Source: a virus. Taken from it: a stretch of 44,918 bases of DNA. The stretch's first letter is position 1; each line of letters begins with the position of its first letter. This document shows positions 2,569 to 24,950 of this stretch, piece after piece. Below the pieces are notes generated by a model. The model was not told the origin of the DNA. It saw nothing but the letters and a program-made list of their open reading frames with translations, and ran no database searches. The stretch covers positions 1 through 44,918 of IMG/VR virus record IMGVR_UViG_3300010885_044600. The stretch is one strand, 5' to 3'. The position numbers and the translations under genes were made by a program.

Positions 2569-3876
2569 TCAATTTTCTTCTTCTTCACCATAGTAGGCAT
2601 ATTGCCCGAATGGTGGAACAATAGATCTGGTACCGTGCAAGATGAACACTGTTTCTGTGTAGTTCTCGTCGCCCCAGCTACCGTACGGGTATCCGTCTGT
2701 AAACATGACCAATCTCTTGGGCTCAATCTCGTTATCTTTCAAGTACCGGTACACACAATCAAAATCTGTACCACCACCACCTGCTGGCTCATAGTCGCAG
2801 ATTGTGTCCAAGTTGTCTGAATCGTATTGCACAGGATTGTAAGTTTCTGTATCAAAGCTAACAACATGGATCTTGTACGCTGGGAACGATTCCATAATGC
2901 CCTGGATCTCACTTAGGAAGTCTTTCAGCATGGCCTCGCCAATAGAACCCGATGTGTCGATTGCCACTGCAATATCGATCATGGGCTCCAGCTTCATACC
3001 GGGCATAATAGCATCCATGTCCCAGCCTTTGCGGCCGGTTCGCATCCAGGTATAGTCACTCTTAATAGTGCTTTCTAACTGCATACGGAGCAGTTCGCGC
3101 CAGTTCATTTTGGGTTCTGTCAAGTCCTTTAAGATACGACGGACACCTGCGGGCAAGTTACCTGCGCCATCTGCGTCTGCGGCCACAGCCGACAACATGG
3201 CTTCTTTAATCTCGTCTTTAATTTGCTGACGATCCTCGGCACTCAACTTAGGGCGACCCTTGCCTTTTTTATCGCCGTCTTCACCTTCCTCACCTGAGCC
3301 GCCACTGTCATCATCGCCTTCGCCATCCAAGTGCTCGTCGATCATCTGGTCCATCAACTTACCAATGTCGATCTTGTCGGCTTTCTCATACAAGATATCG
3401 TACACTTCCTCGGCACAGAGACCTTCATATTTTTTGTCGTACAAGCAAGGCACACTGGTAATGAACTCGCCAACACCGTGCTTCTTCAAGTCTCCATTTA
3501 CACAATAGTCATCTGCAATATTCCACAGCATGGGATCTCGCTCACCTCTGCGTCCAAAGTGATCATATACACAATGCAGGACCTCGTGTCCAAACAGGAA
3601 CTCTACTTCTTTAGGTTTCAACAGTTTAATAAACTTGCAATTGTAATAGAAATTACGGCCATCTGTTGCGGCAGTAGGGCACCATTCGTCTGCATTGACA
3701 AGTTTTAAACGAGTTGCTAAGTTGCCAAAAAAGCTAGCCTTAAGCAACAGGCCCACACGGGCTGTGGTCAAAATTTCTCGCACTTCTCGATCCAGTTTGG
3801 GATCCATTTTACCCACAAGATCTTTAATCTTGTCGTTTTCTTTAGAGTCTGCAGTGGTACCTTTTTTGGAGCTCAT
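2569..3876 (-). CDS. Zinc metallopeptidase-like plus VWA domain protein, 435 aa
   Basis: Two-part protein. The N-terminal half has a zinc-peptidase signature, GHEVLHCVYDH at about residues 97-107 (HExxH with a further His). An acidic linker (about 165-205, Asp/Glu/Gly-rich) follows. The C-terminal half is a VWA-like domain with a MIDAS motif AIDTSGSIG near 310. This matches the DUF2201/VWA-like family usually encoded beside MoxR-type AAA ATPases, as here (4303-5388). MoxR/VWA pairs act as chaperones that remodel or load metal into partners; the phage target is unknown. Start supported by AAGGAATTGT before the ATG; a consensus promoter lies upstream. Confidence 0.85.
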   Translation of the reverse strand: MSSKKGTTADSKENDKIKDLVGKMDPKLDREVREILTTARVGLLLKASFFGNLATRLKLVNADEWCPTAATDGRNFYYNCKFIKLLKPKEVEFLFGHEVLHCVYDHFGRRGERDPMLWNIADDYCVNGDLKKHGVGEFITSVPCLYDKKYEGLCAEEVYDILYEKADKIDIGKLMDQMIDEHLDGEGDDDSGGSGEEGEDGDKKGKGRPKLSAEDRQQIKDEIKEAMLSAVAADADGAGNLPAGVRRILKDLTEPKMNWRELLRMQLESTIKSDYTWMRTGRKGWDMDAIMPGMKLEPMIDIAVAIDTSGSIGEAMLKDFLSEIQGIMESFPAYKIHVVSFDTETYNPVQYDSDNLDTICDYEPAGGGGTDFDCVYRYLKDNEIEPKRLVMFTDGYPYGSWGDENYTETVFILHGTRSIVPPFGQYAYYGEEEEN

Positions 3877-4302: not shown

Positions 4303-5388
4303 TTATGCCCTAGCTTGCAAAATGTACTTGCCGTACTTTTGATGGAACTCGTCAAAGTTCTTTAACTTGGTAGGTTGGAATGGCAAGTCGTATGTGGTAA
4401 GAGCAATACGAGCACCCATAACAACTAGTTCTGTTTCAAAGTTCTTCATCATATAGCCCAGGAAGTTGTCAGACATGGTATGGAACTCTTTGTCTGGCAC
4501 TTTACGGGCCACTGCATCTTTGAGCTCGTAGCACATACTGATAACCAAACTGTACATGGCACTGACTTCTTTAACTGACAGGTCGGTGACCTTACCTGAC
4601 AAGATATCCTCGGGCTTGGGCAGTTTAGAACTAATCTTACGATGGGCCATGAACTTCACAGCAAGACCTTCGCCAATTGTACCGGCAATTAAGTTGGTCA
4701 AAGTGTCGTTGTCGGTGTCCTCGTCATCCAACAACTGGCTCACAAAAGTCCATGAGCGTGGAGTAGCAAAGGCACGGCTGGCACTCTTAGCATCGAAGTC
4801 GTATAAGTCTTGCTTGGCAAAACTTAAATAACCCACCACGTCTTTGTGGATATTGTGTTGAACAGCCCAGGCCTGGTAGCTGGCAAAGTCTACCTTCATC
4901 TCTTGGTGGATGAAACGATTGGCCAGCGGAGTGGGCATACGATAAGTTACGCCTTTGTCACTCTCTCTGTTGCCTGCGGCCACCATAACAACATTGTCCG
5001 GCAGTTTATACTTGCCTACACGTCGGTTCAAAATAAGTTGGTAAGCGGCTGCCTGCACGTTACCTGCGGCACTGTTCATCTCGTCCAGGAACAAGACCAC
5101 AATAGGATACTGGCTGGCAGTTTCCTCGTCCGGCAAGTCGATAGGGGGAGCCCAGTCCATTTTACCAATTTCTTTATTGTAAAAAGGAATGCCTCGAATG
5201 TCTGTGGGCTCCATTTGTCCCAGTCGGCAGTCATACATAATGCCACCTAGTTCGTTTGCAAGTTCCTCTACCAGTTCACTTTTACCAATGCCAGGGGGAC
5301 CCCAAAGGAACAACGGGCGTTTAACTTTAAATGCTTTTAACAAACTCTTGCGAGCCTGTGTAGAGGTAACTGTACGGGTATCTGACAT
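4303..5388 (-). CDS. MoxR-type AAA+ ATPase, 361 aa
   Basis: AAA+ ATPase with Walker A GPPGIGKS at about residues 30-37, Walker B VVLFLDEMNSA near 97-107 and a sensor-type VMVAAGNRES near 135. Length and layout match MoxR/AAA_5 proteins, which work with VWA-domain partners; such a partner lies 0.4 kb downstream. ATP hydrolysis probably remodels a complex bound through the VWA MIDAS site. The start has AAGGAAACACT upstream, and a consensus promoter overlaps the end of the preceding gene. Known MoxR roles are in maturation and stress; what a phage does with it is open. Confidence 0.9.
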   Translation of the reverse strand: MSDTRTVTSTQARKSLLKAFKVKRPLFLWGPPGIGKSELVEELANELGGIMYDCRLGQMEPTDIRGIPFYNKEIGKMDWAPPIDLPDEETASQYPIVVLFLDEMNSAAGNVQAAAYQLILNRRVGKYKLPDNVVMVAAGNRESDKGVTYRMPTPLANRFIHQEMKVDFASYQAWAVQHNIHKDVVGYLSFAKQDLYDFDAKSASRAFATPRSWTFVSQLLDDEDTDNDTLTNLIAGTIGEGLAVKFMAHRKISSKLPKPEDILSGKVTDLSVKEVSAMYSLVISMCYELKDAVARKVPDKEFHTMSDNFLGYMMKNFETELVVMGARIALTTYDLPFQPTKLKNFDEFHQKYGKYILQARA

Positions 5389-13403: not shown

Positions 13404-13411
13404 GGTTTCCT

Positions 13412-13618
13412 TTAACATTCTATGTCAATGTTTCGACCTTTGTCTAAATCTAACCGAAGATTTCGACGTACTCGATCTGCAATAATTTGTTCAAATCTAC
13501 GTTGTTCAATAACCTTGCTATAATCTTCGGAACGTTGTTTTTCTAAACGAGTACGATCTAGTTGATACTGTTCTAGATTGTACTTTATAACACTTTGTTC
13601 GGCTCTTGATATTTGCAT
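13412..13618 (-). CDS. Small charged phage protein, 68 aa
   Basis: Rich in Arg, Glu and Gln ([21 protein letters not shown]), probably a helical or coiled-coil peptide. It lies between tRNA-Gly and ahcY and its stop is next to the Shine-Dalgarno of ahcY. No family recognised. Confidence 0.55.
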
Positions 13619-13643
13619 CGTGCTTCCTTCAACGTATTTAATC

Positions 13644-13717
13644 TGGAGCGGGGTAACAGAATCGAACTGTCAGCATTAGCTTGGAAGGCTAAGGTATTAC
13701 CACTATACGAACCCCGC
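13644..13717 (-). tRNA. tRNA-Gly (TCC)
   Basis: Acceptor GCGGGGT pairs with ACCCCGC, discriminator T, CCA encoded. Anticodon loop CTTCCAA gives TCC. Last tRNA of the operon that reads on to ahcY. Confidence 0.93.
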
Positions 13718-13724
13718 ATAGATT

Positions 13725-13800
13725 TGGTAGGACGTGACGGGCTCGAACCGCCGACAGCTTCGGTGTAAGCGAAGAACTCTACCAACTGAGTTAACGTCCT
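13725..13800 (-). tRNA. tRNA-Val (TAC)
   Basis: Acceptor AGGACGT pairs with ACGTCCT, discriminator A, CCA encoded. Anticodon stem CTTCG/CGAAG encloses loop CTTACAC, anticodon TAC. 7 nt from tRNA-Gly. Confidence 0.94.
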
Positions 13801-13812
13801 AAAATTCTTTAC

Positions 13813-13886
13813 TGGTCTCGGTAGCAGGAATCGAACCTACGCTCGAACGTCCCAAACGTTCAGTGATACCATTTCACCATACCGAG
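13813..13886 (-). tRNA. tRNA-Pro (TGG)
   Basis: Acceptor CTCGGTA pairs with TACCGAG, discriminator A, CCA encoded; loop TTTGGGA gives anticodon TGG. Confidence 0.92.
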
Positions 13887-13892
13887 AAAAAC

Positions 13893-14045
13893 TTAACTGG
13901 GAATCATATGAGGCAAATAAGGAACTGCTCTGGGACCGTGCAGTTGTTGCAACAACTTGCGAGCCTCTTCTGCAGAGCCAGCACCCACACGAGCCTTAAA
14001 CTCCTTGCCGTCGGGTCCTCTAACTGTTGCTTCGTATAATTTCAT
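13893..14045 (-). CDS. Small phage protein, 50 aa
   Basis: Encodes MKLYEATVRGPDGKEFKARV, then GAGSAEEARKLLQQLHGPRAVP, a short beta-hairpin plus helix pattern seen in tiny phage proteins. It is wedged between tRNA-Pro (6 nt) and tRNA-Thr (15 nt) on the same transcript. The amino-acid composition is protein-like, but no family or function is recognised. Confidence 0.6.
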   Translation of the reverse strand: MKLYEATVRGPDGKEFKARVGAGSAEEARKLLQQLHGPRAVPYLPHMIPS

Positions 14046-14060
14046 TTTGTAACTTTAAAA

Positions 14061-14136
14061 TGGTGCCCTTTGTCGGATTCGAACTGACCACCTACGCATT
14101 ACAAGTGCGTTGCTCTACCAAATGAGCTAAAAGGGC
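14061..14136 (-). tRNA. tRNA-Thr (TGT)
   Basis: Acceptor GCCCTTT pairs with AAAGGGC, discriminator A, CCA encoded; stem ACGCA/TGCGT with loop CTTGTAA, anticodon TGT. Confidence 0.94.
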
Positions 14137-14154
14137 GTGTTTCTATTTATAGAC

Positions 14155-14240
14155 TGGTGCGAGTGGCCGGAATCGAACCGGCACGCCATTACAGCGGCAG
14201 ATTTTAAGTCTGCTGTGGCTACCGATTACACCACACTCGC
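14155..14240 (-). tRNA. tRNA-Leu (TAA)
   Basis: 86 nt with a long variable arm, acceptor GCGAGTG/CACTCGC, discriminator A, CCA encoded; stem GCAGA/TCTGC with loop CTTAAAA, anticodon TAA. First gene of the tRNA-ahcY operon. Confidence 0.94.
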
Positions 14241-14257
14241 ATTTCTAACTTGTATAT

Positions 14258-14286
14258 ATTATACAATAAATCAAGTTAATTGTCAA
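14258..14286 (-). promoter_or_regulatory. Sigma70 promoter of the tRNA-ahcY operon
   Basis: Minus strand TTGACA at 14281-14286, 17-bp spacer, TATAAT at 14258-14263. It lies between the AhpD gene and tRNA-Leu. Confidence 0.85.
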
Positions 14287-14297
14287 CCTCTAAGAGA

Positions 14298-14804
14298 CTA
14301 ACTGTTTAAGACTTTTGCCACCGAGTTCATCACTGAGGCAATACGGCCAATGTCACGAAGCTGTTCAACTGAGTATCCTTCTGTCTTTAATGTTTCGTAG
14401 TGTGCCTTGACACAGAAGTGGCACTTGCCAACAATACTTGCGGCCAAACTAAATGCTTCAAAGTTTGACTTGGTAGTTCCACCATGACTAGCAATAGCGT
14501 TCATACGCAACTGAGCTGGAAGACCTTTAAGAGCAGGATCATCAGCCATTTCAACATATGGGTACCACACATTGTTAGTCGCCATTATTGATGCGGCCGT
14601 CATCGCTGATTCAGCATACACTGGATTGTCCGCAAGCATAATGCTCAACAACTTACCATTCCCTGTTGCCGCTAATGCCGCTACAGCACACCCCATTGCT
14701 ACATCAGCATCAAGAGTGCTACGCAATAACACAGCATCAATGTTTAACCGTGTATCTTTGGCATAATCTGGTAATGCCGGTTTAACTACTTCAATAAAAC
14801 TCAT
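14298..14804 (-). CDS. ahpD: AhpD-type alkylhydroperoxidase, 168 aa
   Basis: The active site matches AhpD: Glu, then GKCHFCVKAH with Cys-x-x-Cys and His four residues after the second Cys; the Glu lies 12 residues before the first Cys as in the mycobacterial enzyme. AhpD reduces the paired AhpC peroxiredoxin with electrons from dihydrolipoamide. A peroxiredoxin lies four genes upstream in the same operon (16543-17082), so the pair could form a full peroxide reductase. ATGA overlap with the upstream gene; the operon promoter is at 17138-17166. Confidence 0.85.
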   Translation of the reverse strand: MSFIEVVKPALPDYAKDTRLNIDAVLLRSTLDADVAMGCAVAALAATGNGKLLSIMLADNPVYAESAMTAASIMATNNVWYPYVEMADDPALKGLPAQLRMNAIASHGGTTKSNFEAFSLAASIVGKCHFCVKAHYETLKTEGYSVEQLRDIGRIASVMNSVAKVLNS

Positions 14805-15436
14805 TCTTTTCTTTCTTCTATATTATAAAACCAATCATCTCCTGCTGACCACTTGCGTGTGCCATCCACTGTGAATATGGTCTGGGCGGCTTGGAAGTCT
14901 GGAAACTTGACATTGCCTGAAATCAAACTTTGATCATACCACAGGCATCGGTTGTTGGGTTGACAAGCAAACTGCCCGTTTTCTAATCTAATAAAGTTAA
15001 AACTCTTGTGTTCTTCCGCAACTTCAGTGAAGCCGGTATCTACATCCATACCATCGGCACAAAAATCCACTGTGAACAAATAAGTTCCGTGATGCCACTC
15101 TCGATCTTTGCCCAGGAATTTGACACCTAGATTACGCAGACCTATTTTTTCAACAATGGTAAACCGATAGCCCATGCAGTCCCAGAGTTGCAAGATATCT
15201 ATGGGCAACGTGCCTGTGTAGTTCTCCTGCCACACATAAGCATGAATAGGCAGTTTGTCGTACAGTGCTCCGTAGTTGGGCAACAAGCTCTCGATGCGAA
15301 ACACCTGTCCTCTTAGTGCTTTGAGACTGACCCAGATGGCAGGTTCTAATTCTCCGTGACCTTTTTCAAAGTTGTAGAGAAATTCACGCTTGACAAAACA
15401 TTTGACAGGCGGTAGAGATCCTACAATATAACTCAT
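14801..15436 (-). CDS. Phage conserved hypothetical, 211 aa
   Basis: Begins MSYIVGSLPPVKCFVKREFLYNF and is rich in aromatic residues, with a pattern I associate with hypothetical proteins of T4-like cyanophages. No catalytic motif or membrane segment is seen. It is coupled by overlaps to the BI-1 gene upstream and to ahpD downstream, which places it in the stress operon, but the link may be only transcriptional. Confidence 0.75.
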   Translation of the reverse strand: MSYIVGSLPPVKCFVKREFLYNFEKGHGELEPAIWVSLKALRGQVFRIESLLPNYGALYDKLPIHAYVWQENYTGTLPIDILQLWDCMGYRFTIVEKIGLRNLGVKFLGKDREWHHGTYLFTVDFCADGMDVDTGFTEVAEEHKSFNFIRLENGQFACQPNNRCLWYDQSLISGNVKFPDFQAAQTIFTVDGTRKWSAGDDWFYNIEERKE

Positions 15437-16125
15437 TATTTTCTATCTCCAAACAGTTGCAACAAGTTTAAGAACAAGTTGATAAAGTCCATGTACAGAG
15501 TTAGTGCGCCTCGAACTTCCACAACATCACTAGTGTTTACACTAACCTCTTCACGGATCTTTTGTGTGTCATAGGCTGTTAAACCAAGGAAGATGATGAC
15601 AGCCAAGGCGGAGATCACCATCTGCATCACGGTGCTGCCAATAAAGATATTAACGATACTGGCAATGCAGATGGCAATCAAACCCACAATCATAAACTTG
15701 CCCATGCTGTCCAGGCTCTGTTTGGTAAAGTAGCCGTAACCACTCATGACACCAAACAGGATTGCCGCGCCCATAAATGCCGACACAATACTGCCCATGG
15801 TAAACACAGCAAAAATTGTGGCAAAACTCAAGCCCATCAGTGCGGCAAATCCATGTAGGCATAACTGTGCTACACCTTTACTAGGATTGTTTCCTAGGAT
15901 CATAGCAACACCAAAGATTGCTGCCAATGGTGCAAAGATCACAATCCATTTCATCCAACCTGTAAAAAAGAATGCCAGCAACTCTGGACTAGATCCCACA
16001 AAGTAACTGACCATCATTGATACAATAACAGCAAGGCTCATATGTCCATAAACACGGCCCATTGCAGAGTTGATTTCACTGGCAGAACGATATGACATTC
16101 CACCTGTATAACTTGTTTCAAACAT
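15436..16125 (-). CDS. Bax inhibitor-1 / YccA family membrane protein, 229 aa
   Basis: Seven hydrophobic segments between residues 27 and 225 and the typical BI-1 features: an N-terminal NSAMGRVYGHMSLAVIVSM and a C-terminal FLGLTAYDTQKIREE followed by ALTLYMDFINLFLNLLQLFGDRK, the last being very characteristic of bacterial members. These inner-membrane proteins are thought to be calcium/proton leak channels or FtsH regulators. Stop-start overlap with the next gene; 1 nt from psiE. Very unusual cargo for a phage; it might delay host death or affect FtsH/HflB control. Confidence 0.92.
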   Translation of the reverse strand: MFETSYTGGMSYRSASEINSAMGRVYGHMSLAVIVSMMVSYFVGSSPELLAFFFTGWMKWIVIFAPLAAIFGVAMILGNNPSKGVAQLCLHGFAALMGLSFATIFAVFTMGSIVSAFMGAAILFGVMSGYGYFTKQSLDSMGKFMIVGLIAICIASIVNIFIGSTVMQMVISALAVIIFLGLTAYDTQKIREEVSVNTSDVVEVRGALTLYMDFINLFLNLLQLFGDRK

Positions 16126-16126
16126 T

Positions 16127-16543
16127 TTATGCTACCTCATCTTTCTTGTCACTAGGAAATTTTGCACTGGTGTATCGAATAACCAATACACTGACAGCAA
16201 TAACAAATGTAGAACCAGCCACTGCTAACATCTCAACAATGTCAATGGGCTGGTGACTCATGATGTCTACCATGTGCCTGGTCAATGCTGTTATTGCTAT
16301 GTAAAGTAGAAATCTAACAGGCATATGATTGGTTCTAAAATAAATCCCAACCATGGCCCCAATTTCCAAATAGATAAACATCAGCAATAAGTCGCCAACT
16401 TCGGCATGGTGCTTTTGAAGCATTTCAAAAAACGTCCAACCTGCGGCCCATACCGTTGCGGCACCTATGCCAAAAAGTGCCAACCGGTGAAATATATCAA
16501 CTAAGGTATTTCCAACCCGATCAACATTTTTTGTATTCAACAT
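16127..16543 (-). CDS. psiE: PsiE-like phosphate-starvation membrane protein, 138 aa
   Basis: Four membrane helices and the PsiE pattern LLLMFIYLEIGAMVGIYFRTNHMPVRFLLYIAITALTR (shown in parts: LMFIYLEIGAMVGIYF, then NHMPVRFLLYIAITALTR) near residues 53-90. PsiE is induced by phosphate starvation in enterics; its biochemical role is unknown. The gene starts on the stop of the peroxiredoxin gene and ends 1 nt before BI-1. Phosphate limits phage replication in fresh and sea water, so a phosphate-linked role is plausible but unproved. Confidence 0.82.
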   Translation of the reverse strand: MLNTKNVDRVGNTLVDIFHRLALFGIGAATVWAAGWTFFEMLQKHHAEVGDLLLMFIYLEIGAMVGIYFRTNHMPVRFLLYIAITALTRHMVDIMSHQPIDIVEMLAVAGSTFVIAVSVLVIRYTSAKFPSDKKDEVA

Positions 16544-17082
16544 TATAATGTCTCGCCGCCAACTGTGCGGTTACAAGCACACAGCTCGCCAGTTTGTAGC
16601 GCATCCAATACACGAAGTGTTTCTTCTGGACTACGACCAACGTTCAAGTTGTTCACAGTCACGTGTTGGATAACGTTGTCTGGGTCCACAATGAATGTGG
16701 CACGAAGTGCGGCACCTGCTGGAGCATAGAACACGCCTAGTTGTTCAATCAAGCTCAACTCACCACGCTGTGTGTCAGCAAACTGGTGATGAGTGATCTT
16801 CTTTAGATCTGCGTGTGCTGTTTGCCAAGCAACCTTACAAAACTCATTGTCTGTGCTACCGGTGAGCAATACAACATCACGGTCAGCAAAGTCCGATGCC
16901 AACTTGTCGTAGGCCACAATCTCTGTGGGGCAAACGAATGTAAAGTCCTTTGGGTAGTAAACGATTACTTTCCACTTGCCTTCAAAACTATTTTCTGTAA
17001 TAGTATAGAAAGCATCTTCTGGTTGTCCTGGACGGACGCCTGTGACTGCGAATGGGGTTAATTTATCTCCAACTGTTTTCAT
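16543..17082 (-). CDS. ahpC: AhpC-type peroxiredoxin, 179 aa
   Basis: Two-Cys peroxiredoxin with peroxidatic motif YPKDFTFVCPTEI at about residues 43-55, the conserved Arg region GAALRATFIVDP near 125 and a C-terminal resolving site ELCACNR. It reduces hydrogen peroxide and organic peroxides. The C-terminal double Cys and the co-operonic AhpD resemble the mycobacterial AhpC/AhpD pair. First gene of a five-gene operon; AAAGGAGATATT precedes the ATG and a promoter lies at 17138-17166. Confidence 0.93.
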   Translation of the reverse strand: MKTVGDKLTPFAVTGVRPGQPEDAFYTITENSFEGKWKVIVYYPKDFTFVCPTEIVAYDKLASDFADRDVVLLTGSTDNEFCKVAWQTAHADLKKITHHQFADTQRGELSLIEQLGVFYAPAGAALRATFIVDPDNVIQHVTVNNLNVGRSPEETLRVLDALQTGELCACNRTVGGETL

Positions 17083-17137
17083 AATATCTCCTTTGTGCTA
17101 AATGAAAATGTTTGCAGAAGTTGTTCTGCATGTGTGT

Positions 17138-17166
17138 ATTGTACAGTTATTTACATGAGAAATCAA
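17138..17166 (-). promoter_or_regulatory. Sigma70 promoter of the redox/stress operon
   Basis: Minus strand TTGATT at 17161-17166, 17-bp spacer, TACAAT at 17138-17143 preceded by TG. Somewhat weaker than the other promoters. About 55 nt of leader follow before ahpC. Confidence 0.7.
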
Positions 17167-17218
17167 CCTGATCTCATGGTTTCTACTGAATATATATCTA
17201 TGGCAGCAATAGAAAAAA

Positions 17219-17247
17219 TCAATAAAGAAACCCGCCGAATCGGGGTT
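17219..17247 (-). terminator. Intrinsic terminator after the 2OG oxygenase gene
   Basis: Minus strand AACCC-cgattcggc-GGGTT followed by TCTTTATTGATTTTTT. It ends the 17278-17856 transcript ahead of the ahpC promoter. The stretch 17083-17277 otherwise holds only this and the promoter. Confidence 0.65.
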
Positions 17248-17277
17248 GCATCGAGCATTAATTAATTATGTATTTTT

Positions 17278-17856
17278 TTACAAGATATTTTGATACAATT
17301 TGACTTTGTGAACTACTTCTTCAAAACTGGGATTACCTGCCAATCTCATGGTCAATGTTATTCTATAAGATCCGTCCAGCGCACTAGTAGCATTATGTGG
17401 CACACTAACCTTGGCCAATACTGGTCCCGAGGCTATTTCTACACTATCAAACTCATTGGGCGCCTCAATCCATTCTACAGCGGCGTAGTCAGAGTCTTCA
17501 AATTTTTTTGGTACTACGTTGTAGTCACCATTGTACCAGTACATCTTTGTATCCACGCAACCTTTGACTGGAATCAAAATAGATGAATGAATCATTTCAT
17601 TAGTTGTCCCATCAAAATCTATGTGTACTTTTTCACTAGTGCAATCAAAATAATTTTTTCTTTTGAAACACAAAAAGTTTGATGCTGTTGGCAATCCCAT
17701 GTCAACTAAACTGCAATTGACTGCTTGAATAACGTTGGTATCAAACGGTACATAGCGAAGGTACAGATTTTCACTATTAAGATCTTGCATGTACTGCTCA
17801 GCAACTGCACACATTGCATCAAAAGACGGCAAACTTGGAAAAGCACAATATAACAT
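17278..17856 (-). CDS. 2OG-Fe(II) oxygenase-like phage protein, 192 aa
   Basis: Start placed at MLYCAFPSLPSF; the longer in-frame extension reads through a tmRNA-like sequence and is not real. Signatures of phage 2OG oxygenases: VHIDFD near residue 75 (HxD), ILIPVKGCVDTKMYWYNGDYN, then KVSVPHNATS (distal His) and YRITLTMR (Arg) near 150-175. Substrate unknown. Its leader RNA carries an orphan tmRNA acceptor half with its own promoter. Confidence 0.7.
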   Translation of the reverse strand: MLYCAFPSLPSFDAMCAVAEQYMQDLNSENLYLRYVPFDTNVIQAVNCSLVDMGLPTASNFLCFKRKNYFDCTSEKVHIDFDGTTNEMIHSSILIPVKGCVDTKMYWYNGDYNVVPKKFEDSDYAAVEWIEAPNEFDSVEIASGPVLAKVSVPHNATSALDGSYRITLTMRLAGNPSFEEVVHKVKLYQNIL

Positions 17857-17871
17857 AGTTTTTAAAATATT

Positions 17872-17933
17872 TGGTGGAAGACCGGGGAGTTGAACCCGCC
17901 CAAGACACTTTTCTCTCGGCTTCATATAGCAAT
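17872..17933 (-). ncRNA. Orphan tmRNA acceptor-half-like RNA
   Basis: Minus strand ends CTTCCACCA and carries a T-arm GGGCGGGTTCAACTCCCC almost identical to classical bacterial tmRNA, preceded by TGAAGC..GAGAGAAAAGTGTCTTGG, which matches the acceptor piece of the complete permuted tmRNA at 20674-20745 nearly base for base. Promoter hexamers at 17940-17968 place the transcription start right at its 5' end. No matching coding half (expected start GGAAGAC or GGGAGAC) follows; a 2OG oxygenase gene does. Either a decayed duplicate or an expressed orphan half. Confidence 0.65.
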
Positions 17934-17939
17934 ACAACA

Positions 17940-17968
17940 ATTATATATGATAACCGATTAAAAGTCAA
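17940..17968 (-). promoter_or_regulatory. Sigma70 promoter for the orphan tmRNA half and 2OG gene
   Basis: Minus strand TTGACT at 17963-17968, 17-bp spacer, TATAAT at 17940-17945. It directly abuts the porin terminator. Confidence 0.8.
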
Positions 17969-17991
17969 CAAAAAGCCCACCGAAGTGGGCT
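17969..17991 (-). terminator. Intrinsic terminator of the porin gene
   Basis: Minus strand AGCCCAC-ttcg-GTGGGCT followed by TTTTGTTG, a 7-bp GC-rich stem with a TTCG loop. Confidence 0.88.
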
Positions 17992-18013
17992 TGGAAATCT
18001 ACGTTATGCTAGA

Positions 18014-18898
18014 TCAGAAGCGGTGTGTTACACCAACTCCAACTTGTTTAACATCATTGGCTGTGCCGGCCACATTAACATTACGATATGCAATGACGGC
18101 TGCAGTACGCTTGCTGAAATTGTAATCAGCACCTACAGCATAGGCCTTGACATTGGTATTTGTTTTACCATAGCTGGCCTTGGCAGTCACTGGTCCAAAT
18201 GTTTGACTTGCGCCAATCAAATCGCCTTTGTGTGCGCCTGTGCCCTTGTCATCACTGTGTGTATAAAACACCTGTGTGTTACCTAGCTTGGCGTTGGCAC
18301 CATACACTGTGCTCTTTTCGACACCTTGTGAATATTGAGCAACAACTGCGTTGATGCCAAACAATTTAGCACCTGCACTGTAACTGGTTGCTTCTGCGCC
18401 TACGGCTGTTTGTGTACGGTCATACGTGGCAGTAACACCTTTGATTGGTGTCACAGAAACAAATGTACCGTTGCTCAAGCGCAAGCCACGTAAATTGTGT
18501 ACATCACCGGCAACACTGCCATACAATGTGTCAAATGCATCATTGCTGGTAATTGCCAAGAAGTGACTGTGCAGATTGCGACCAAGGTCAATGCTGCCTA
18601 AATTGTTGGCCAAGCCCACTGTGCTTTGACGATCACCTAACTTGGTTGCAGAGCCACCTGTGGGATCATTGGCTGCCAAACTTGTGTCTACTACCACGCG
18701 AGCCTTCAACCCACCGCCGATGTTTTCTGTGGCAGTAAATGTGATGTTGCTGGTTGGATCAGTAGCAAGACCTGTTGCTTTCACAGCACCTGTTTTGGCA
18801 CTGTCAACAACTGTACTGATTTTGCCAGAGACTGATACTTGTGCAGTTGCAACCAAAGCGGTTGCGGCCAATAATGTCGCTAATGCGATTTTCTTCAT
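18014..18898 (-). CDS. Phage-encoded outer membrane porin, 294 aa
   Basis: N-terminal signal peptide MKKIALATLLAATALVATAQ, then a beta-barrel-like alternation throughout, with internal motifs usual in betaproteobacterial porins (VSGKISTVVD, NITFTATENIGGGLKARVVVDTSL, RQSTVGLANNLGSIDLGRNL) and a C-terminal Phe after GVGVTHRF, the recognition signal for barrel assembly. Slightly short (294 vs about 330-380 aa). The gene stands alone between terminators with a hairpin in its leader. It would be inserted in the host outer membrane. The known precedent is the porin of lambdoid phage PA-2, which changes the host surface and blocks superinfection. Confidence 0.92.
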   Translation of the reverse strand: MKKIALATLLAATALVATAQVSVSGKISTVVDSAKTGAVKATGLATDPTSNITFTATENIGGGLKARVVVDTSLAANDPTGGSATKLGDRQSTVGLANNLGSIDLGRNLHSHFLAITSNDAFDTLYGSVAGDVHNLRGLRLSNGTFVSVTPIKGVTATYDRTQTAVGAEATSYSAGAKLFGINAVVAQYSQGVEKSTVYGANAKLGNTQVFYTHSDDKGTGAHKGDLIGASQTFGPVTAKASYGKTNTNVKAYAVGADYNFSKRTAAVIAYRNVNVAGTANDVKQVGVGVTHRF

Positions 18899-18919
18899 AT
18901 AAATTTTCCTTTAAAATAT

Positions 18920-18937
18920 AGCCGACTTTTGTCGGCT
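18920..18937 (-). promoter_or_regulatory. Leader hairpin just upstream of the porin Shine-Dalgarno
   Basis: Minus strand AGCCGAC-aaaa-GTCGGCT, 7 bp with a 4-nt loop, about 10 nt before the AAAGGA site of the porin gene. It could protect the mRNA 5' end or tune translation. No clear promoter hexamers are seen between it and the upstream terminator. Confidence 0.5.
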
Positions 18938-18987
18938 AGAATAATACTTAGTCGCGTTACATGATCCCCGGCTTTTTTATAGAAGAA

Positions 18988-19006
18988 ACCCACCAAAAAG
19001 GTGGGT
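18988..19006 (-). terminator. Intrinsic terminator after the glycosyltransferase-like gene
   Basis: Minus strand ACCCACC-ttttt-GGTGGGT followed by TTCTTCTATAAAAAAG. A 7-bp GC-rich stem 5 nt after the stop codon; it isolates the porin gene from upstream transcription. Confidence 0.8.
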
Positions 19007-19011
19007 CTTGC

Positions 19012-20319
19012 TCATTGAGATCTCAGCAACCGAATCATTTTGCTATACCAATCATCATCATATTTTGTAATCAAACTGGGATCTGCTTTTAATATTTTTT
19101 TTCTCACTGTTCTTAGAAACATGCCACGTGGTTTTTTAATGTGTTGAATTGTATGTGTTAAATTAGTTTTTAATTCTTCAATCACCTGTTGTTGAAACGC
19201 ATCGCTGAAAAAATGTTTTTTGTTAAAATCAGCTATGAGTCTGATTTCTACTAGAAATTGATCAAACTCCTCGGCGCCAAGCAAATTAATTTTATTCATG
19301 CTGTTGATAATTTTTTCAAGTCTGCACAAACTGTCAGATTCTTGATCATAACTTTCGTCAATCCAGGGAGCAAATGTTCGAAATCCGTAATTTCTAAGAT
19401 ACTCTAAACTGCGTGGCCCTGCTGCCAATATAAATGGATGACCGCATGCAATTGGTCTCAGTATCTTTTCTGTCAGGTGGATTCTTGAGTCGTCAAACAT
19501 GGTTTCTAAAACTACACTTATTGCAGTTGAATTGAAATCATCATGATTGTACTGTGCGCTCTCGTTGCTGTCGCATTGATTATCTTTGAGCAGATCTAAT
19601 ACAGTGCTATCTTTAAGCGCAAAATTGACATTTTTAAATTTATGATCATGATAATGATGTCCTTGATTGCCTTCGGACCGGGTTGATATACTGGTTTTAC
19701 TTGATTCATGTAATCCATGTTCGATTAATAATTCCATGAACTTTAATCTGTATTCTCTGGTATTGCCCCAGGCGCGATTATATATAAGGAATTTTTCTTG
19801 TATATGAGATTGCGGAACAAGCCGAGCATCTATTTCAGCAAATCTATACCAGTCACGAGCAATAATTGCATGACACCAATAGTAAACCGGCAAAAAATTA
19901 TTTTGAGAATACTGTTCTACTTCAACAGAATTTTTTTCAGAATGCAGTAAAATTGCCTGGTCGCACTGCGTGCCATATGCCAATGGCATTGCCAATAAAT
20001 TTTTATCAACTAAGACCTGACATCTTATTTCCATGGCAGCGGCCTTGCTTACTGCCAGTCTGGCATGCAAATTCTGAATAAAAACATGCATTGATGCTGG
20101 GTCAATATTTGCATACAAATTATAATCCAATGGTTCCTGGTCGTGTACAACAACTGGAATATTAACATGATGTTCCTGGCCCTGATCCTGGCCCAAGGGA
20201 CTCAGTGGAGTCAGATCAAAAATGTTTTTACTACCATGCGGATAAAATCTATAGATTACTACAGGAACAGGAATAATTGATTGTACCCAATGGTATAAAT
20301 TGTCTATGGGAATATTCAT
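19012..20319 (-). CDS. Exostosin/fucosyltransferase-like phage glycosyltransferase, 435 aa
   Basis: No short catalytic motif is certain, but the C-terminal block DDSRIHLTEKILRPIACGHPFILAAG and SLEYLRNYGFRTFAPWIDESYD (about residues 275-335) is a known pattern in phage glycosyltransferase-like proteins related to exostosin/GT10 enzymes (TEK.LRPI..G.PF). The N-terminal half is variable. It may glycosylate virion proteins or a surface glycan. Transcribed alone, ending at a strong terminator. Confidence in the broad class is moderate. Confidence 0.6.
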   Translation of the reverse strand: MNIPIDNLYHWVQSIIPVPVVIYRFYPHGSKNIFDLTPLSPLGQDQGQEHHVNIPVVVHDQEPLDYNLYANIDPASMHVFIQNLHARLAVSKAAAMEIRCQVLVDKNLLAMPLAYGTQCDQAILLHSEKNSVEVEQYSQNNFLPVYYWCHAIIARDWYRFAEIDARLVPQSHIQEKFLIYNRAWGNTREYRLKFMELLIEHGLHESSKTSISTRSEGNQGHHYHDHKFKNVNFALKDSTVLDLLKDNQCDSNESAQYNHDDFNSTAISVVLETMFDDSRIHLTEKILRPIACGHPFILAAGPRSLEYLRNYGFRTFAPWIDESYDQESDSLCRLEKIINSMNKINLLGAEEFDQFLVEIRLIADFNKKHFFSDAFQQQVIEELKTNLTHTIQHIKKPRGMFLRTVRKKILKADPSLITKYDDDWYSKMIRLLRSQ

Positions 20320-20351
20320 ACTATGGTGTTGGAGTTTATTATTGAATAAAA

Positions 20352-20384
20352 GGTAATTTAATTCTGTTACGAGGATAAATTACC
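20352..20384 (-). terminator. Second terminator downstream of tmRNA
   Basis: Minus strand GGTAATTTA pairs with TAAATTACC (9 bp, 15-nt loop) followed by TTTTATTC. It backs up the tmRNA 3' hairpin. Confidence 0.55.
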
Positions 20385-20394
20385 AAAAACCCTA

Positions 20395-20573
20395 GGCAGT
20401 GTTTAGACTGCCAATGCTTCCTTGGCTGAACGAGCAGAGAACTTGAGATTCTTGCCTGAAACAGTTACGGTTTTGTTTACGTTTGCATTTACGTTTTTTG
20501 CTTGATTAACGGTCATCGCCTACCGTGCTGTCCACTTGTTTACTTGTTGCCCTGTCGAATCTAGGTCAGGCCC
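20395..20573 (-). ncRNA. ssrA: tmRNA coding piece (permuted ssrA)
   Basis: Minus strand begins GGGCCTGACCTAGATTCGAC, the classical tmRNA 5' consensus. GGGCCTG pairs with CAGGTCC of the acceptor piece 100 nt upstream in the same transcript and includes the G3-U70 wobble that marks alanine identity. After a PK1-like segment comes a resume codon GCA and a 27-codon tag that starts ANVNKT and ends AKEALAV before TAA (20403-20405). The stop lies inside a hairpin GGCAGT-ctaaac-ACTGCC followed by TAGGGTTTTT, which also works as terminator. The order acceptor-then-coding shows a circularly permuted, two-piece tmRNA. Confidence 0.92.
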
Positions 20574-20673
20574 TTCATAAAGAATCTATGTAATACTATC
20601 CAGTAAAAGTAGTTTAGCGGAACTGCTAAACATAACAATACGTGATACCATTCTATCGTCATAAACTTCCTTA

Positions 20674-20745
20674 TGGTGGACCTGGGGGGATTCGCACCCC
20701 CGTCCAAGACACTTTTCTCTTTGCTTCATACAGCAATAACACTTA
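20674..20745 (-). ncRNA. ssrA: tmRNA acceptor piece (permuted ssrA)
   Basis: Minus strand ends CAGGTCC-A-CCA. T-arm GGGGG-tgcgaat-CCCCC is intact; upstream lies TGAAGCAAAGAGAAAAGTG, shared with the orphan half at 17872. The acceptor strand pairs with the coding piece at 20567-20573. An intervening segment of 100 nt (20574-20673) separates the pieces and would be removed by processing. The exact 5' end is uncertain. It follows tRNA-fMet by 5 nt in a Ser-fMet-tmRNA transcript. Confidence 0.9.
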
Positions 20746-20749
20746 TTTA

Positions 20750-20824
20750 TGGTTGCGGGGGAAGGACTCGAACCTCCGGCTTCCAGGTTATGAGCCTGGC
20801 GGTCTACCACTGACGTACCCCGCG
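20750..20824 (-). tRNA. Initiator tRNA-fMet (CAT)
   Basis: Acceptor CGCGGGG with CCCCGC leaves an unpaired C1-A72, the hallmark of bacterial initiator tRNA; the 3' end is CCCCGCAACCA. Anticodon loop CTCATAA. The anticodon stem has AGG/CCT in place of the usual three G-C pairs, a deviation. Confidence 0.88.
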
Positions 20825-20830
20825 ATAAAT

Positions 20831-20920
20831 TGGCGGAAGCGGTGAGATTCGAACTCACGAGGGACGTTAATCCCTGCTGGGTTAGTAATCCAGTTCCATC
20901 GGCCACTCGGACACGCTTCC
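20831..20920 (-). tRNA. tRNA-Ser, anticodon read as ACT
   Basis: 90 nt, long variable arm, acceptor GGAAGCG/CGCTTCC with discriminator G (serine-like) and encoded CCA. The anticodon arm is CTGGA-TTACTAA-CCCAG: U33 fixes the anticodon as ACT (codon AGU), with an A31-C39 mismatch. An unmodified A34 for the AGY box is unusual. Confidence 0.8.
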
Positions 20921-20930
20921 TACACTTGTA

Positions 20931-20958
20931 ATTATAACAGAAAAAAACTAAAAGTCAA
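20931..20958 (-). promoter_or_regulatory. Sigma70 promoter of the Ser-fMet-tmRNA unit
   Basis: Minus strand TTGACT at 20953-20958, 16-bp spacer, TATAAT at 20931-20936, just upstream of tRNA-Ser. Confidence 0.8.
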
Positions 20959-20965
20959 TGACTTT

Positions 20966-21466
20966 TTAGAATTTTTCGTTAACTCTGGCTCTATAACTTG
21001 CAGTTGATAATCCTTTAAATCGGTCGGCAGCATAACTGGCAGCAAATGCATTGGGTTTAACCGATGGTGTCACATTGCAAGTACCTTTGATGTAGCCCAC
21101 TGCTTGTGAGATCACACAGCTAGAACCGTACTGATCGTCGGGATTGATGTCTAAATGTACTTCAACATGCCGACCTTCTAGTACTTCGCCCAGCTTAAGG
21201 TACAGTTCAGATACTTTATAAACTTCGTTCATCAATCGCATACTAGGACGAGAAGTTTTTTGATCAAAATCCCGCTCACGTTGTACTTCGCCAAACAGTT
21301 TACAGCCGTTGTTGCCGTTGATGTGCACCACAACAGCCAGCACATAGTCAGCATGCCAAACTCCGTTTACTCTTAGTCGCTCTGAGTCACAGCCAAGATA
21401 AATTCGAGTTTCGGGTGTCTGCGCTTCGATGAACTTTTTTACTTTAACAAGATTTATCTTTTCCAT
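20966..21466 (-). CDS. RNase H-like DUF458/YkuK-type protein, 166 aa
   Basis: Matches the DUF458 RNase H-like family: YLGCDSERLRVNG near residue 24 (first Asp), VHLDINPDDQYGSSCVISQAVGYIKG near 103-128 and KPNAFAASYAADRFKG near 137-152. The acidic residues would bind metal for nuclease activity, although none has been shown for the family to my knowledge. It lies between tRNA genes; the promoter of the tmRNA unit starts just after it. Confidence 0.85.
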   Translation of the reverse strand: MEKINLVKVKKFIEAQTPETRIYLGCDSERLRVNGVWHADYVLAVVVHINGNNGCKLFGEVQRERDFDQKTSRPSMRLMNEVYKVSELYLKLGEVLEGRHVEVHLDINPDDQYGSSCVISQAVGYIKGTCNVTPSVKPNAFAASYAADRFKGLSTASYRARVNEKF

Positions 21467-21478
21467 AATGTTCTACTT

Positions 21479-21563
21479 TGGTGCGGATGGAGAGACTCGA
21501 ACTCTCACGATTTTACTCGCTGGAACCTAAATCCAGTGCGGCTACCAATTACGCCACATCCGC
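21479..21563 (-). tRNA. tRNA-Leu (TAG)
   Basis: 85 nt, long variable arm, acceptor GCGGATG/CATCCGC, discriminator A, CCA encoded; stem CTGGA/TCCAG with loop TTTAGGT, anticodon TAG. Confidence 0.93.
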
Positions 21564-21570
21564 TTTTTCT

Positions 21571-21646
21571 TGGCTCCTCGACCTGGGCTCGAACCAGGGA
21601 CAACTTGATTAACAGTCAAGTGCTCTACCAACTGAGCTATCAAGGA
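21571..21646 (-). tRNA. tRNA-Asn (GTT)
   Basis: Acceptor TCCTTGA with TCGAGGA, discriminator G, CCA encoded; stem CTTGA/TCAAG, loop CTGTTAA, anticodon GTT. Confidence 0.93.
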
Positions 21647-21652
21647 ATAATC

Positions 21653-21808
21653 TTATTTGCGTTCTTTAGGTGAGAACGCAACTGGGGTTGCTTGTGCGTC
21701 AACCATTGCTCTTTTAAATCCGTTGCGATCGTGTTGATCTCTAAACTTTAGCAATGCCAGTAATGTTTTTGTTCTTTTGCTGAGTTTAAATGCTGATGTT
21801 GTTTTCAT
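21653..21808 (-). CDS. Small basic phage protein, 51 aa
   Basis: Encodes MKTTSAFKLSKRTKTLLALL followed by KFRDQHDRNGFKRAMVDAQ, a basic helical peptide. AAGGAAAC precedes the ATG. It sits 6 nt from tRNA-Asn. A similar basic peptide (24268-24411) lies in another tRNA group, so they may be related. Function unknown; RNA binding is a guess. Confidence 0.6.
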   Translation of the reverse strand: MKTTSAFKLSKRTKTLLALLKFRDQHDRNGFKRAMVDAQATPVAFSPKERK

Positions 21809-21859
21809 TTGTTTCCTTGTTGTGTGGGGTATTTATTGGTACAAAGTTGAGGTATAAAT

Positions 21860-22054
21860 ATGTGCATGCAGACGCAAACACAAGATTTTATTTCAAACAG
21901 CGGACATTTGCAAGTGCACCTGTCACTCAGTGAGTATAACACATCTTACATCTTTGTCAATGATATTTTCAATGATCGGCTAATTATGCGTTACTTCAGC
22001 AATCATGAAACTGCAGTCAACTGGATCAAGTCCTTCAAAGACGACTATCAATAA
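21860..22054 (+). CDS. Small phage protein on the opposite strand, 64 aa
   Basis: Encodes MCMQTQTQDFISNSGHLQVHL followed by SLSEYNTSYIFVNDIFNDRL and a helix, an alpha-beta pattern that looks like a real small domain. It is one of few plus-strand genes and ends 2 nt before tRNA-His on the other strand. TATAAATA (21853-21860) overlaps its start, resembling a T4 late promoter, but the spacing to the ATG is too short for a leader. Function unknown. Confidence 0.55.
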   Translation: MCMQTQTQDFISNSGHLQVHLSLSEYNTSYIFVNDIFNDRLIMRYFSNHETAVNWIKSFKDDYQ

Positions 22055-22056
22055 TC

Positions 22057-22132
22057 TGGGGAGAAGTATGGGAATCGAACCCATATTAACGGAATCACAA
22101 TCCGTGGTGTTGACCTTTACACTAACAACTCC
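22057..22132 (-). tRNA. tRNA-His (GTG)
   Basis: Anticodon stem ACGGA/TCCGT, loop TTGTGAT, anticodon GTG; extra 5' G opposite C73 as expected for tRNA-His; CCA encoded. Two adjacent U-U mismatches appear in the acceptor stem, so efficiency is uncertain. Confidence 0.85.
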
Positions 22133-22138
22133 ATAATA

Positions 22139-22213
22139 TGGCCTCGCCTGCAGGAATCGAACCCACATTCAAGAGGTAGAAGCTCTTTGTATTATCCATT
22201 ATACTAAGGCGAG
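22139..22213 (-). tRNA. tRNA-Arg (TCT)
   Basis: Acceptor CTCGCCT/AGGCGAG, discriminator G, CCA encoded; stem AAGAG/CTCTT, loop CTTCTAC, anticodon TCT. Confidence 0.93.
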
Positions 22214-22219
22214 AATGAC

Positions 22220-22290
22220 AGAAGGCACTGGATTTGAACTCTGATCCACTGGTTAAAAGCCAGTTGCTTTGGCTGTTAATTTATGCCCCC
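22220..22290 (-). tRNA. tRNA-Lys (TTT), copy 1, no encoded CCA
   Basis: Stem ACTGG/CCAGT with loop CTTTTAA, anticodon TTT. Acceptor GGGGGCA/TGCCTTC uses two G-U pairs, and the 3' end reads GTCA in place of CCA, so CCA would be added after transcription. It lies 26 nt from the divergent plus-strand oxygenase gene. Confidence 0.85.
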
Positions 22291-22316
22291 TAAAATCAAC
22301 TGGTAAATAACAGATC

Positions 22317-23111
22317 ATGAGTACCTGGCATCAATTTTATCAAGCAGTAAGAGATCCTTCGTGGCCTGACTGTGCCACCGAAGATTCTTATCCGCTTCTA
22401 CCCGATTTCATACGTCAGGAATGCGAGACCGTACATAGCTATGTACCGGGTAGTTTCAAACGTGCCGCCGTTAATGCGTTGTTAGTGCATGCAATCAGCC
22501 CAGTACCCGAATCTATACTGAATGCGGCTATAGCCGAAATAGACAACATGGATTGGGCGCAGACACAAACAGATTTATATATTCAAACTTTCCAAGCAGT
22601 TGAATATCATGGCGCTACTGATACTACTCCACCAATCCAACAGAATTTTGTAAATAAAACCCAATCAATTTTTCTGCGCACTCACGCACCGAATGATAAT
22701 ATAGCTGAGTTGAAAGATTATTTCAAAAATCTTGAATCGGTGGACACTGAATGGCAAGTGCGACTGCCCGGTGTGACCAAACTTTTACACTGGACACAAC
22801 AAAAAATGAATGCCAAGGCCATTGGTAACAGTTTTTTAAACTGCATGCAGCCAGGTGGTAGTGTTCTGCTACATGTTGACACAGGTCGTTATTTTGACAC
22901 CTACTGTAGATTTCACATACCACTGCAAACCAACAGTCAAGTAACTTTTACTGGAACATCTGACAGTCAAGAACACATGTCTTTAGGTTGGCTGTATAGA
23001 CTCAACAATCTAGCGTGGCATCAAGTTCAAAATCAAGGAACAACCCATCGTGTACATTTGATTGTTGATCTGTTGTTGGATCAACCCAACAGAACCTTTA
23101 ATACCACCTAA
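22317..23111 (+). CDS. 2OG-Fe(II) oxygenase, aspartyl hydroxylase-like, 264 aa
   Basis: C-terminal signatures: LLHVDTGRYFDTYCRFHIPL near residue 180-200 (HxD and Arg-x-His) and LAWHQVQNQGTTHRVHLIVD near 232-252 (distal His, Arg). Same subgroup as the 5967-6704 protein. The N-terminal 100 residues are unique (WHQFYQAVRDPSWPDC). It is on the plus strand in the midst of minus-strand tRNAs, so it must have its own promoter, which I cannot identify. Substrate unknown. Confidence 0.8.
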   Translation: MSTWHQFYQAVRDPSWPDCATEDSYPLLPDFIRQECETVHSYVPGSFKRAAVNALLVHAISPVPESILNAAIAEIDNMDWAQTQTDLYIQTFQAVEYHGATDTTPPIQQNFVNKTQSIFLRTHAPNDNIAELKDYFKNLESVDTEWQVRLPGVTKLLHWTQQKMNAKAIGNSFLNCMQPGGSVLLHVDTGRYFDTYCRFHIPLQTNSQVTFTGTSDSQEHMSLGWLYRLNNLAWHQVQNQGTTHRVHLIVDLLLDQPNRTFNTT

Positions 23112-23117
23112 TATTTT

Positions 23118-23195
23118 TGGCAGAGGGTACTGGATTCGAACCAGTGATCATGGAGTCAAAGTCCAATGCTTTAGACCAAACTAAGCTAACCCCCA
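23118..23195 (-). tRNA. tRNA-Gln (TTG)
   Basis: Loop CTTTGAC gives TTG; 3' end ACCCTCT-G-CCA pairs with TGGGGGT apart from a weak U1-U72, in line with the naturally open first pair of tRNA-Gln. Confidence 0.88.
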
Positions 23196-23206
23196 GTAAT
23201 AATTGT

Positions 23207-23280
23207 TGGAGCGGGATAGGAGAATCGAACTCCTGACTAAACCTTGGCAAGGTTTCGTTTGACCATTAAACTAATCCCGC
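23207..23280 (-). tRNA. tRNA-Gly (GCC)
   Basis: Acceptor GCGGGAT/ATCCCGC, discriminator T, CCA encoded; stem AAACC/GGTTT, loop TTGCCAA, anticodon GCC. Confidence 0.93.
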
Positions 23281-23283
23281 ACG

Positions 23284-23358
23284 TGGTGGTGATGAGTAGA
23301 GTTGAACTACTACCAGACTCCGTATGAAGGAGGCGCACTACCGTTATGCTACATCACC
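23284..23358 (-). tRNA. tRNA-Met elongator (CAT)
   Basis: Acceptor GGTGATG/CATCACC, discriminator A, CCA encoded; loop TTCATAC, anticodon CAT. Paired first base, so not an initiator. A tRNA-Ile with modified CAT cannot be excluded by sequence alone. Confidence 0.85.
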
Positions 23359-23361
23359 CGA

Positions 23362-24096
23362 TTAATCAAAGTAGTATTCAAGATCAGTAAGACCAGCCAC
23401 ATTAGAATGGTCTAACCCAGTGATATAAGAGTCACGGCGTAGTTCAGTGCCGGGCACCAGGTCTCGGCGAATGTGTGTTAGTTCCATACATCCAAACACA
23501 CCATCTGAATCAAATCCCACGTGATTGTTGCCGTGTACGTGTACTATGGCATAGTGTTCTTGCCACCGCTCCACAGCCTGTTGCCATTGTTTGCTACGAT
23601 TGGCACAGTTGTGCCATTCCATTGCAACGCCTACTATACGGTCGCGATGTTGTACGATGCTTTCAATCAAACTGTATTCGCCACCTTCGATGTCCATCTT
23701 AATGAACACCTGATCTACACCCATTCTGTCTAGGGCTCGAGCAAAATTTTCTGGCCCGATAAATTCAGGCCAATGTTTTACATTACCTTGAAAGAATTCA
23801 TCGTACATGGCTCGAATATCCAAGTGTCCACGAACAGGCGTATTAATGCTGATACGCATAGTATCTCTAGTGACACTGGCGTCATACATCTGAATTGGAT
23901 CTGTAGGCTTGAGATCATGCCAGTCTTGGTCAAATGTAAAATCGTCACCTAGTCCAAAACTCAGCAGGCCCTGTGCTTGGTCCACTGCTGAACGTGGCAC
24001 AATGTAGCCGCCATCCATTTTTCCACCTAATCTAATTAGGTCTGGCACTGCAACAGGGCAGAGCCAATGTAGTTCTTGGGGTAGTTTAATTTTCAT
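23362..24096 (-). CDS. FkbM-family SAM methyltransferase, 244 aa
   Basis: FkbM-type O-methyltransferase: LRLGGKMDGGYIVPR-like N-terminus (IRLGGKMDGGYIVPR near residue 21-35), GLLSFGLGDDFTFDQDW as the SAM-binding region, and VFIKMDIEGGEYSLIE near residue 130-145, the family hallmark. Probably methylates a sugar hydroxyl. It ends 3 nt before tRNA-Met. Its leader contains a strongly folded RNA (24124-24218) and AATAAATA 6 nt before the ATG region. Confidence 0.88.
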   Translation of the reverse strand: MKIKLPQELHWLCPVAVPDLIRLGGKMDGGYIVPRSAVDQAQGLLSFGLGDDFTFDQDWHDLKPTDPIQMYDASVTRDTMRISINTPVRGHLDIRAMYDEFFQGNVKHWPEFIGPENFARALDRMGVDQVFIKMDIEGGEYSLIESIVQHRDRIVGVAMEWHNCANRSKQWQQAVERWQEHYAIVHVHGNNHVGFDSDGVFGCMELTHIRRDLVPGTELRRDSYITGLDHSNVAGLTDLEYYFD

Positions 24097-24123
24097 AATT
24101 TTATTTATTAGCTGGTTCTACGC

Positions 24124-24218
24124 ACCATATAAAAGCACACTATATGCGCCCAGGTTGTCAAGCGCCACTAACAGCCTGCAACCACGCAGGGTAGCCGTGT
24201 AATGTGCTTTTATATGGT
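24124..24218 (-). ncRNA. Candidate structured RNA closed by a perfect 16-bp stem
   Basis: ACCATATAAAAGCACA at 24124-24139 is the exact reverse complement of 24203-24218. On the minus strand, inside it, GCTAC-CCTGC-gtggtt-GCAGG-..-GTGGC forms one arm and GCGC-..-GGCGC another, giving a three-way junction. It overlaps the CCA end of tRNA-Lys copy 2 by 4 nt and lies in the leader of the FkbM gene. Function unknown: a processing structure, leader regulator or independent RNA. Confidence 0.6.
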
Positions 24219-24288
24219 AGGGGTGCAGGGGAACGATCCCTGTTTTACGGATTAAAAGTCCGTTACTTCACCTTAAAGTTTCACCCCC
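24215..24288 (-). tRNA. tRNA-Lys (TTT), copy 2
   Basis: Acceptor GGGGGTG/CACCCCT (G1-U72), discriminator A, CCA encoded; stem ACGGA/TCCGT, loop CTTTTAA, anticodon TTT. Its CCA is part of the outer stem of the structured RNA at 24124-24218. Confidence 0.9.
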
Positions 24289-24411
24289 TAATGAGCTTTG
24301 TTTTTGTGCTCGTCGCAGAGCCTTGTTGGTCTTGCGATGCGCACCTGCTTTGCGAAACAGTGCAAGACGAACGAAGCAGTTACGTTCGCGCACGATCGGT
24401 TTATGTTTCAT
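24268..24411 (-). CDS. Small basic phage protein, 47 aa, overlapping tRNA-Lys
   Basis: Encodes MKHKPIVRERNCFVRLALFR then a lysine/arginine-rich helix (KTNKALRRAQKQSS). AAAAGGAAATTGT precedes the ATG at a good distance. The reading frame runs 21 nt into the tRNA-Lys gene before its stop, so the mRNA and the tRNA share sequence. Composition resembles the 51-aa peptide at 21653. Function unknown. Confidence 0.5.
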   Translation of the reverse strand: MKHKPIVRERNCFVRLALFRKAGAHRKTNKALRRAQKQSSLGGETLR

Positions 24412-24430
24412 ACAATTTCCTTTTATAAAA

Positions 24431-24504
24431 TGGTGGAGGATGCGAGAGTCGAACTCGCGAATGAGCCTTGCAAAGGCACCGGTTTCCCACTAGCCTAATC
24501 CCCC
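24431..24504 (-). tRNA. tRNA-Ala (TGC)
   Basis: Acceptor GGGGGAT/ATCCTCC with G3-U70, the alanine identity pair, discriminator A, CCA encoded; loop TTTGCAA, anticodon TGC. One T-T mismatch in the anticodon stem. Confidence 0.88.
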
Positions 24505-24792: not shown

Positions 24793-24797
24793 ATGTC

Positions 24798-24872: not shown

Positions 24873-24880
24873 AAAAAGGG

Positions 24881-24945: not shown

Positions 24946-24950
24946 AAACT

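Follow-up and report, generated by a model that had tools for sequence, protein, structure and literature searches.

A phage-encoded general porin of the Porin_4 family with shortened outer loops and a conserved leader

Phages usually alter the surface of their host by means of lipoproteins, inner-membrane proteins and sugar enzymes. T5 Llp, for example, is a lipoprotein that blocks FhuA and is not a barrel. Phage porins and outer-membrane barrels are already known as well, from annotation and, for PA-2 and lambda, as general background. PA-2 is a temperate lambdoid phage, and its Lc is a porin of the enterobacterial Porin_1 type; this phage-encoded protein has reportedly been proposed to alter the receptor set of the host. 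Here, a viral stretch of 44,918 nucleotides (IMG/VR record IMGVR_UViG_3300010885_044600, positions 1 to 44,918, hereafter the window) was analysed, in which an earlier note had recognised a complete outer-membrane porin encoded by a T4-like phage.

18014..18898, minus strand: porin coding sequence, 294 aa, with a signal peptide at about residues 1-19 and a mature barrel of 275 aa

The reading frame is complete, running from the N-terminus MKKIALATLLAATALVATAQ to the C-terminus GVGVTHRF. In Pfam it matches Porin_4 at 7.8e-24 (85.5 bits against a curated cut-off of 27) and Porin_1 at 5.9e-8, also above the curated cut-off, while a PHROG search gave no match. AlphaFold predicts, with moderate confidence (pLDDT 75, pTM 0.70), a barrel of the 16-strand type in which L3 is the constriction loop. 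The best PDB fold match of this model in Foldseek is Omp32 (E 4.9e-16, TM 0.72), the other top folds include the betaproteobacterial porins BpsOmp38 and PorB, and a sequence-profile search of solved structures likewise returned betaproteobacterial porins as best relatives. The conserved charged residues R90, R107, D120 and R140 are retained. Thus, 18014-18898 encodes a complete porin, as the earlier note had it, and this porin is a general porin of the Porin_4 family. Three of the features on which that note relied are present: a signal peptide and C-terminal Phe can be read in the sequence of this porin and of all full-length members, and the β-barrel is seen in the model.

The porin belongs to the phage. 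Both flanks of the gene align to porin-less sister phages, and IMG/VR holds 30 further loci with relatives at 39-83% identity, on contigs of up to 524 kb. An assembly join to host DNA, named in the earlier note as the refuting case, is excluded by these two observations. Together with recent capture of a host porin it would be an extremely improbable origin: Porin_4 is a bacterial family and G+C is slightly higher across the gene, but a scan across 84,980 species of bacteria and archaea turned up no more than seven matches, all weak. The best cellular profile score, from 300 Burkholderiales genomes, was 80.6 bits versus 370-510 bits for the phage members. In the phylogenetic tree, the type A porins, i.e. 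this porin and its close relatives, group in a single phage clade (support 100/100, stem 0.84) that contains no cellular sequence. By codon comparison, the phage porin lineage is under purifying selection, with dN/dS values of 0.10-0.29 that are lowest in L3 in most pairs. No relative of the porin was detected by tblastn among 50,697 isolate phage records.

The neighbourhood in the window comprises MoxR and DUF2201/VWA genes, 25 tRNA genes in several groups (13644-29843, minus strand) and a permuted tmRNA gene (20403-20735, minus strand; Rfam RF04321, 122 bits). The isolates nearest by their MoxR and DUF2201/VWA proteins are jumbo phages, namely PA5oct and relatives, Phosso and Atu_ph07; for MoxR, the nearest are PA5oct (Arenbergviridae) and Phosso. 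The large relatives are freshwater jumbo phages as well (contigs of 230-525 kb), and a gene for a T4 Gp23-type capsid protein was found in 9/9 of those tested, so that the label “T4-like” holds in a broad sense. A run of metabolism-like genes (12117-17082, minus strand) encodes S-adenosylhomocysteine hydrolase, a member of the carboxymuconolactone decarboxylase family, a PHROG “ferredoxin”, Bax1-I, PsiE and an AhpC-type peroxiredoxin.

2569..3876, minus strand: DUF2201/VWA metallopeptidase-like protein, partner of the MoxR gene
4303..5388, minus strand: MoxR-type AAA ATPase, a conserved landmark downstream of the porin slot
17232..18994, strand not given: cassette with the porin, about 1.76 kb, missing from contigs G004 and G005
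17278..17940, minus strand: 220-aa ORF of unassigned function inside the cassette, true start possibly downstream
17880..17935, minus strand: partial copy of the first part of the permuted tmRNA region inside the cassette, 85% over 55 bp

The two sister contigs G004 and G005 carry about 28 bp in place of window positions 17232-18994, with mostly 84-93% identity to the window on both flanks (78% in one G004 segment). MoxR lies 0.8-6.4 kb downstream of the porin on the same strand in 28 of the 30 further porin loci, and 12.6 kb downstream in the window. Other barrels can occupy this slot. In G006 (347 kb) the leader is retained, 88% identical over 115 bp, and is followed by a different protein of 180 aa, modelled as a 10-strand barrel (pLDDT 86) with weak PDB matches, the best being NspA. 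Type B is a distinct Porin_4 porin of 277-279 aa on four contigs, placed in a clade separate from the A porins; on at least two of these contigs, MoxR follows it at a distance of 4.6 kb. Type C comprises relatives of the G006 barrel, on contigs of up to 364 kb; several of them share its signal peptide, whereas the whole proteins are only about 21-23% identical. A near-identical signal peptide, MKKIFAILALA, also recurs in loci L220, L224, L226 and L231 (starting at 6001), whose proteins are about 21-23% alike overall, and suggests exchange at the signal-peptide boundary among these proteins.

Judging from the sequence comparisons, genes at the porin slot are exchanged, and the exchange extends into the porin itself at L3. 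The L012 porin (8001-8882) is an intragenic recombinant with its break in L3, the N-terminal half being 82-97% like L028 and the C-terminal half 97-100% like L014. Between L026 and L002/L028, the DNA of the signal-peptide region is 84-87% identical versus 45-69% for the mature parts. Among 40 contigs picked by MoxR similarity, ten carry a recognised barrel (three A-like, four B and three C, the searches for B and C being less complete than that for A), and none showed two barrel types. Nor was an A porin found with a C barrel on the same contig, the contigs being partial. The surveyed contigs are fragments, hence such absences are soft. Still, as most of the sister phages surveyed lack a recognised barrel, the porin appears to be dispensable. 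Separately, the 343-kb phage contig G020 carries two C-type outer-membrane barrels (L246 and L247).

18899..18956, minus strand: porin leader, from alignment, covariation and covariance-model search
18950-18940, minus strand: late-promoter-like TAAGTATTATT within the leader
18938-18919, minus strand: 5′UTR hairpin of the leader, from alignment and covariation
18912-18907, minus strand: ribosome-binding site AAAGGA within the leader
17973..17992, minus strand: terminator-like hairpin 3′ of the porin, from a hairpin scan
18989..19005 (approximate), minus strand: terminator-like hairpin closing the upstream 435-aa gene, read in the sequence and not listed by the scan

The leader was defined by aligning about 58 nt from 19 porin upstream regions and that of G006. 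In all, the 20-sequence alignment gives the order (TA)TAAATATTA-type motif, short hairpin, AAAGGA and start codon. Pairing of the hairpin is kept in 98.3% of cells, with double changes at 4/6 pairs, and exceeds both shuffled and slid controls. This conserved, covarying element at 18919-18938 belongs to the porin's own leader and was thereby ruled out as the terminator of the previous gene. The earlier placement of the gene between two terminators is therefore upheld in part: terminator-like hairpins do occur at 17973-17992 and about 18989-19005, but the nearest hairpin is a leader element. In 1.31 Mb searched, the covariance model matched only ahead of these porins and the G006 barrel, which rules out a general late leader; weak matches occur ahead of some other C-type barrels. 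An 18-base string of the leader was found in viral contigs only in G006, plus one chance match (L184).

TAAATA, the core of the promoter motif of the leader, stands upstream of 32/90 genes in the capsid region versus a shuffled mean of 8.7; in the window it is no more frequent than in shuffles (2/37 genes, shuffled mean 2.0). This difference supports the motif as a late promoter. The exact T4-type late-promoter motif TATAAATA occurs in the upstream regions of L003, L008, L026 and L027; the copy in the window is the variant TAAGTA, and the motif was not seen immediately upstream of the major capsid gene. We infer that the porin is transcribed late from its leader.

The comparison of surface loops with host-type porins, suggested in the earlier note, was done by aligning the phage porins to cellular porins from Burkholderiales. 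With strand boundaries taken from the model, so that loop edges are approximate, the median lengths in phage A versus cellular porins are 7 versus 13 for L4, 12 versus 20 for the L5 region, 4 versus 9 for L6, 10 versus 17 for the L7 region and 6 versus 17 for L8. The extracellular loops L4-L8 are thus shorter, whereas L3 keeps nearly its full length and strands and periplasmic turns equal those of cellular porins. Outer loops are trimmed in the type B porin as well. From the retained L3 it can be argued that the A porin still conducts.

Our best reading of these data, put forward tentatively, is that a late-expressed, interchangeable outer-membrane-protein cassette remodels the surface of the infected cell. 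After late transcription and export, the porin would enter the outer membrane and function there as a channel, displaying little of the loop surface that is the target of most porin-binding phages. With host porin synthesis coming to an end, the infected cell could keep its solute exchange and show fewer receptors, which would lessen superinfection and the loss of progeny on a dying cell; swapping of barrels may keep the cell surface ahead of co-infecting phages. The porin is probably a channel poor in receptor surface, which would limit adsorption by superinfection exclusion or by protection of progeny. Of the two roles first suggested, superinfection exclusion is compatible with, and appears somewhat favoured by, the trimmed loops and the swapping with a smaller barrel. 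Both ideas would combine in a channel that still conducts but exposes few outer loops. It is possible, though rather doubtful, that jumbo phages reserve one slot for late display at the cell surface, with one leader and signal-peptide module behind which barrels are exchanged against rival phages, by analogy with the exchange of tail-fibre tips in other phages. Several points speak against remodelling of the surface. Conservation usually peaks in L3, which is what selection for transport itself would produce; reduced length relative to cellular counterparts is common among viral proteins on general grounds; a protein made late would miss early superinfection; and the window has only the variant TAAGTA, with most sister phages lacking a recognised barrel.

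The serious rival is nutrient uptake, a possible role but a doubtful one on its own, in which the porin would raise the diffusion of phosphate, other anions and small solutes and so supply the replication of a very large phage genome. The usual conservation of the constriction loop, the conserved charges at R90, R107, D120 and R140, the anion-selective Omp32 as closest fold, and PsiE with other metabolism-like genes nearby all agree with it. Uptake does not need trimmed outer loops, however; PsiE is near only one other locus, and the predicted 10-strand barrel of G006, in the same slot behind the same leader, probably does not form a wide pore for diffusion. As the alternatives at the slot share barrel insertion and not pore size, remodelling of the surface accounts for all of them more readily than uptake does by itself. 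A generic barrel could also occupy the assembly machinery and maintain, or later weaken, the outer membrane after host synthesis stops. Different barrel types in one slot and a late-type leader would suit such a maintenance or lysis aid, which we consider unlikely: it would predict neither strong L3 conservation nor selective loss of outer loops, and most sister phages lack a recognised barrel. If surface remodelling holds, cells infected by freshwater jumbo phages would display a virus-chosen outer membrane, and the slot would affect co-infecting phages, solute entry and the organisation of late infection.

In the open-licence literature, neither a paper on jumbo-phage porins nor a description of an exchangeable slot with its own leader or of loop trimming was found. 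Compared to Omp32, PorB and BpsOmp38, the phage porin shares the Porin_4 profile, the predicted 16-strand fold, the L3 constriction loop and the terminal Phe, but is about 40-60 aa shorter, mainly in L4-L8, and falls in a separate phage clade. The annotated porins A0A6J5L4P1 and A0A6J5LP82 of uncultured Caudovirales have the same overall fold (TM 0.75 and 0.61), albeit with a sequence identity of only 18%. Vibrio phage nt-1 R9TIU5 and lambda Lom are small phage-encoded outer-membrane barrels, comparable to the G006 barrel yet different proteins. The resemblance to T5 Llp lies in one version of the proposed role, i.e. shielding of progeny from the receptor. Like PA-2 Lc, the porin is encoded in a phage genome. 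Unlike Lc, it is found in a jumbo phage, with a late-type leader and an exchangeable slot, and its match to Porin_4 (7.8e-24) rather than Porin_1 (5.9e-8), together with its betaproteobacterial nearest folds, places it outside the enterobacterial Porin_1 lineage.
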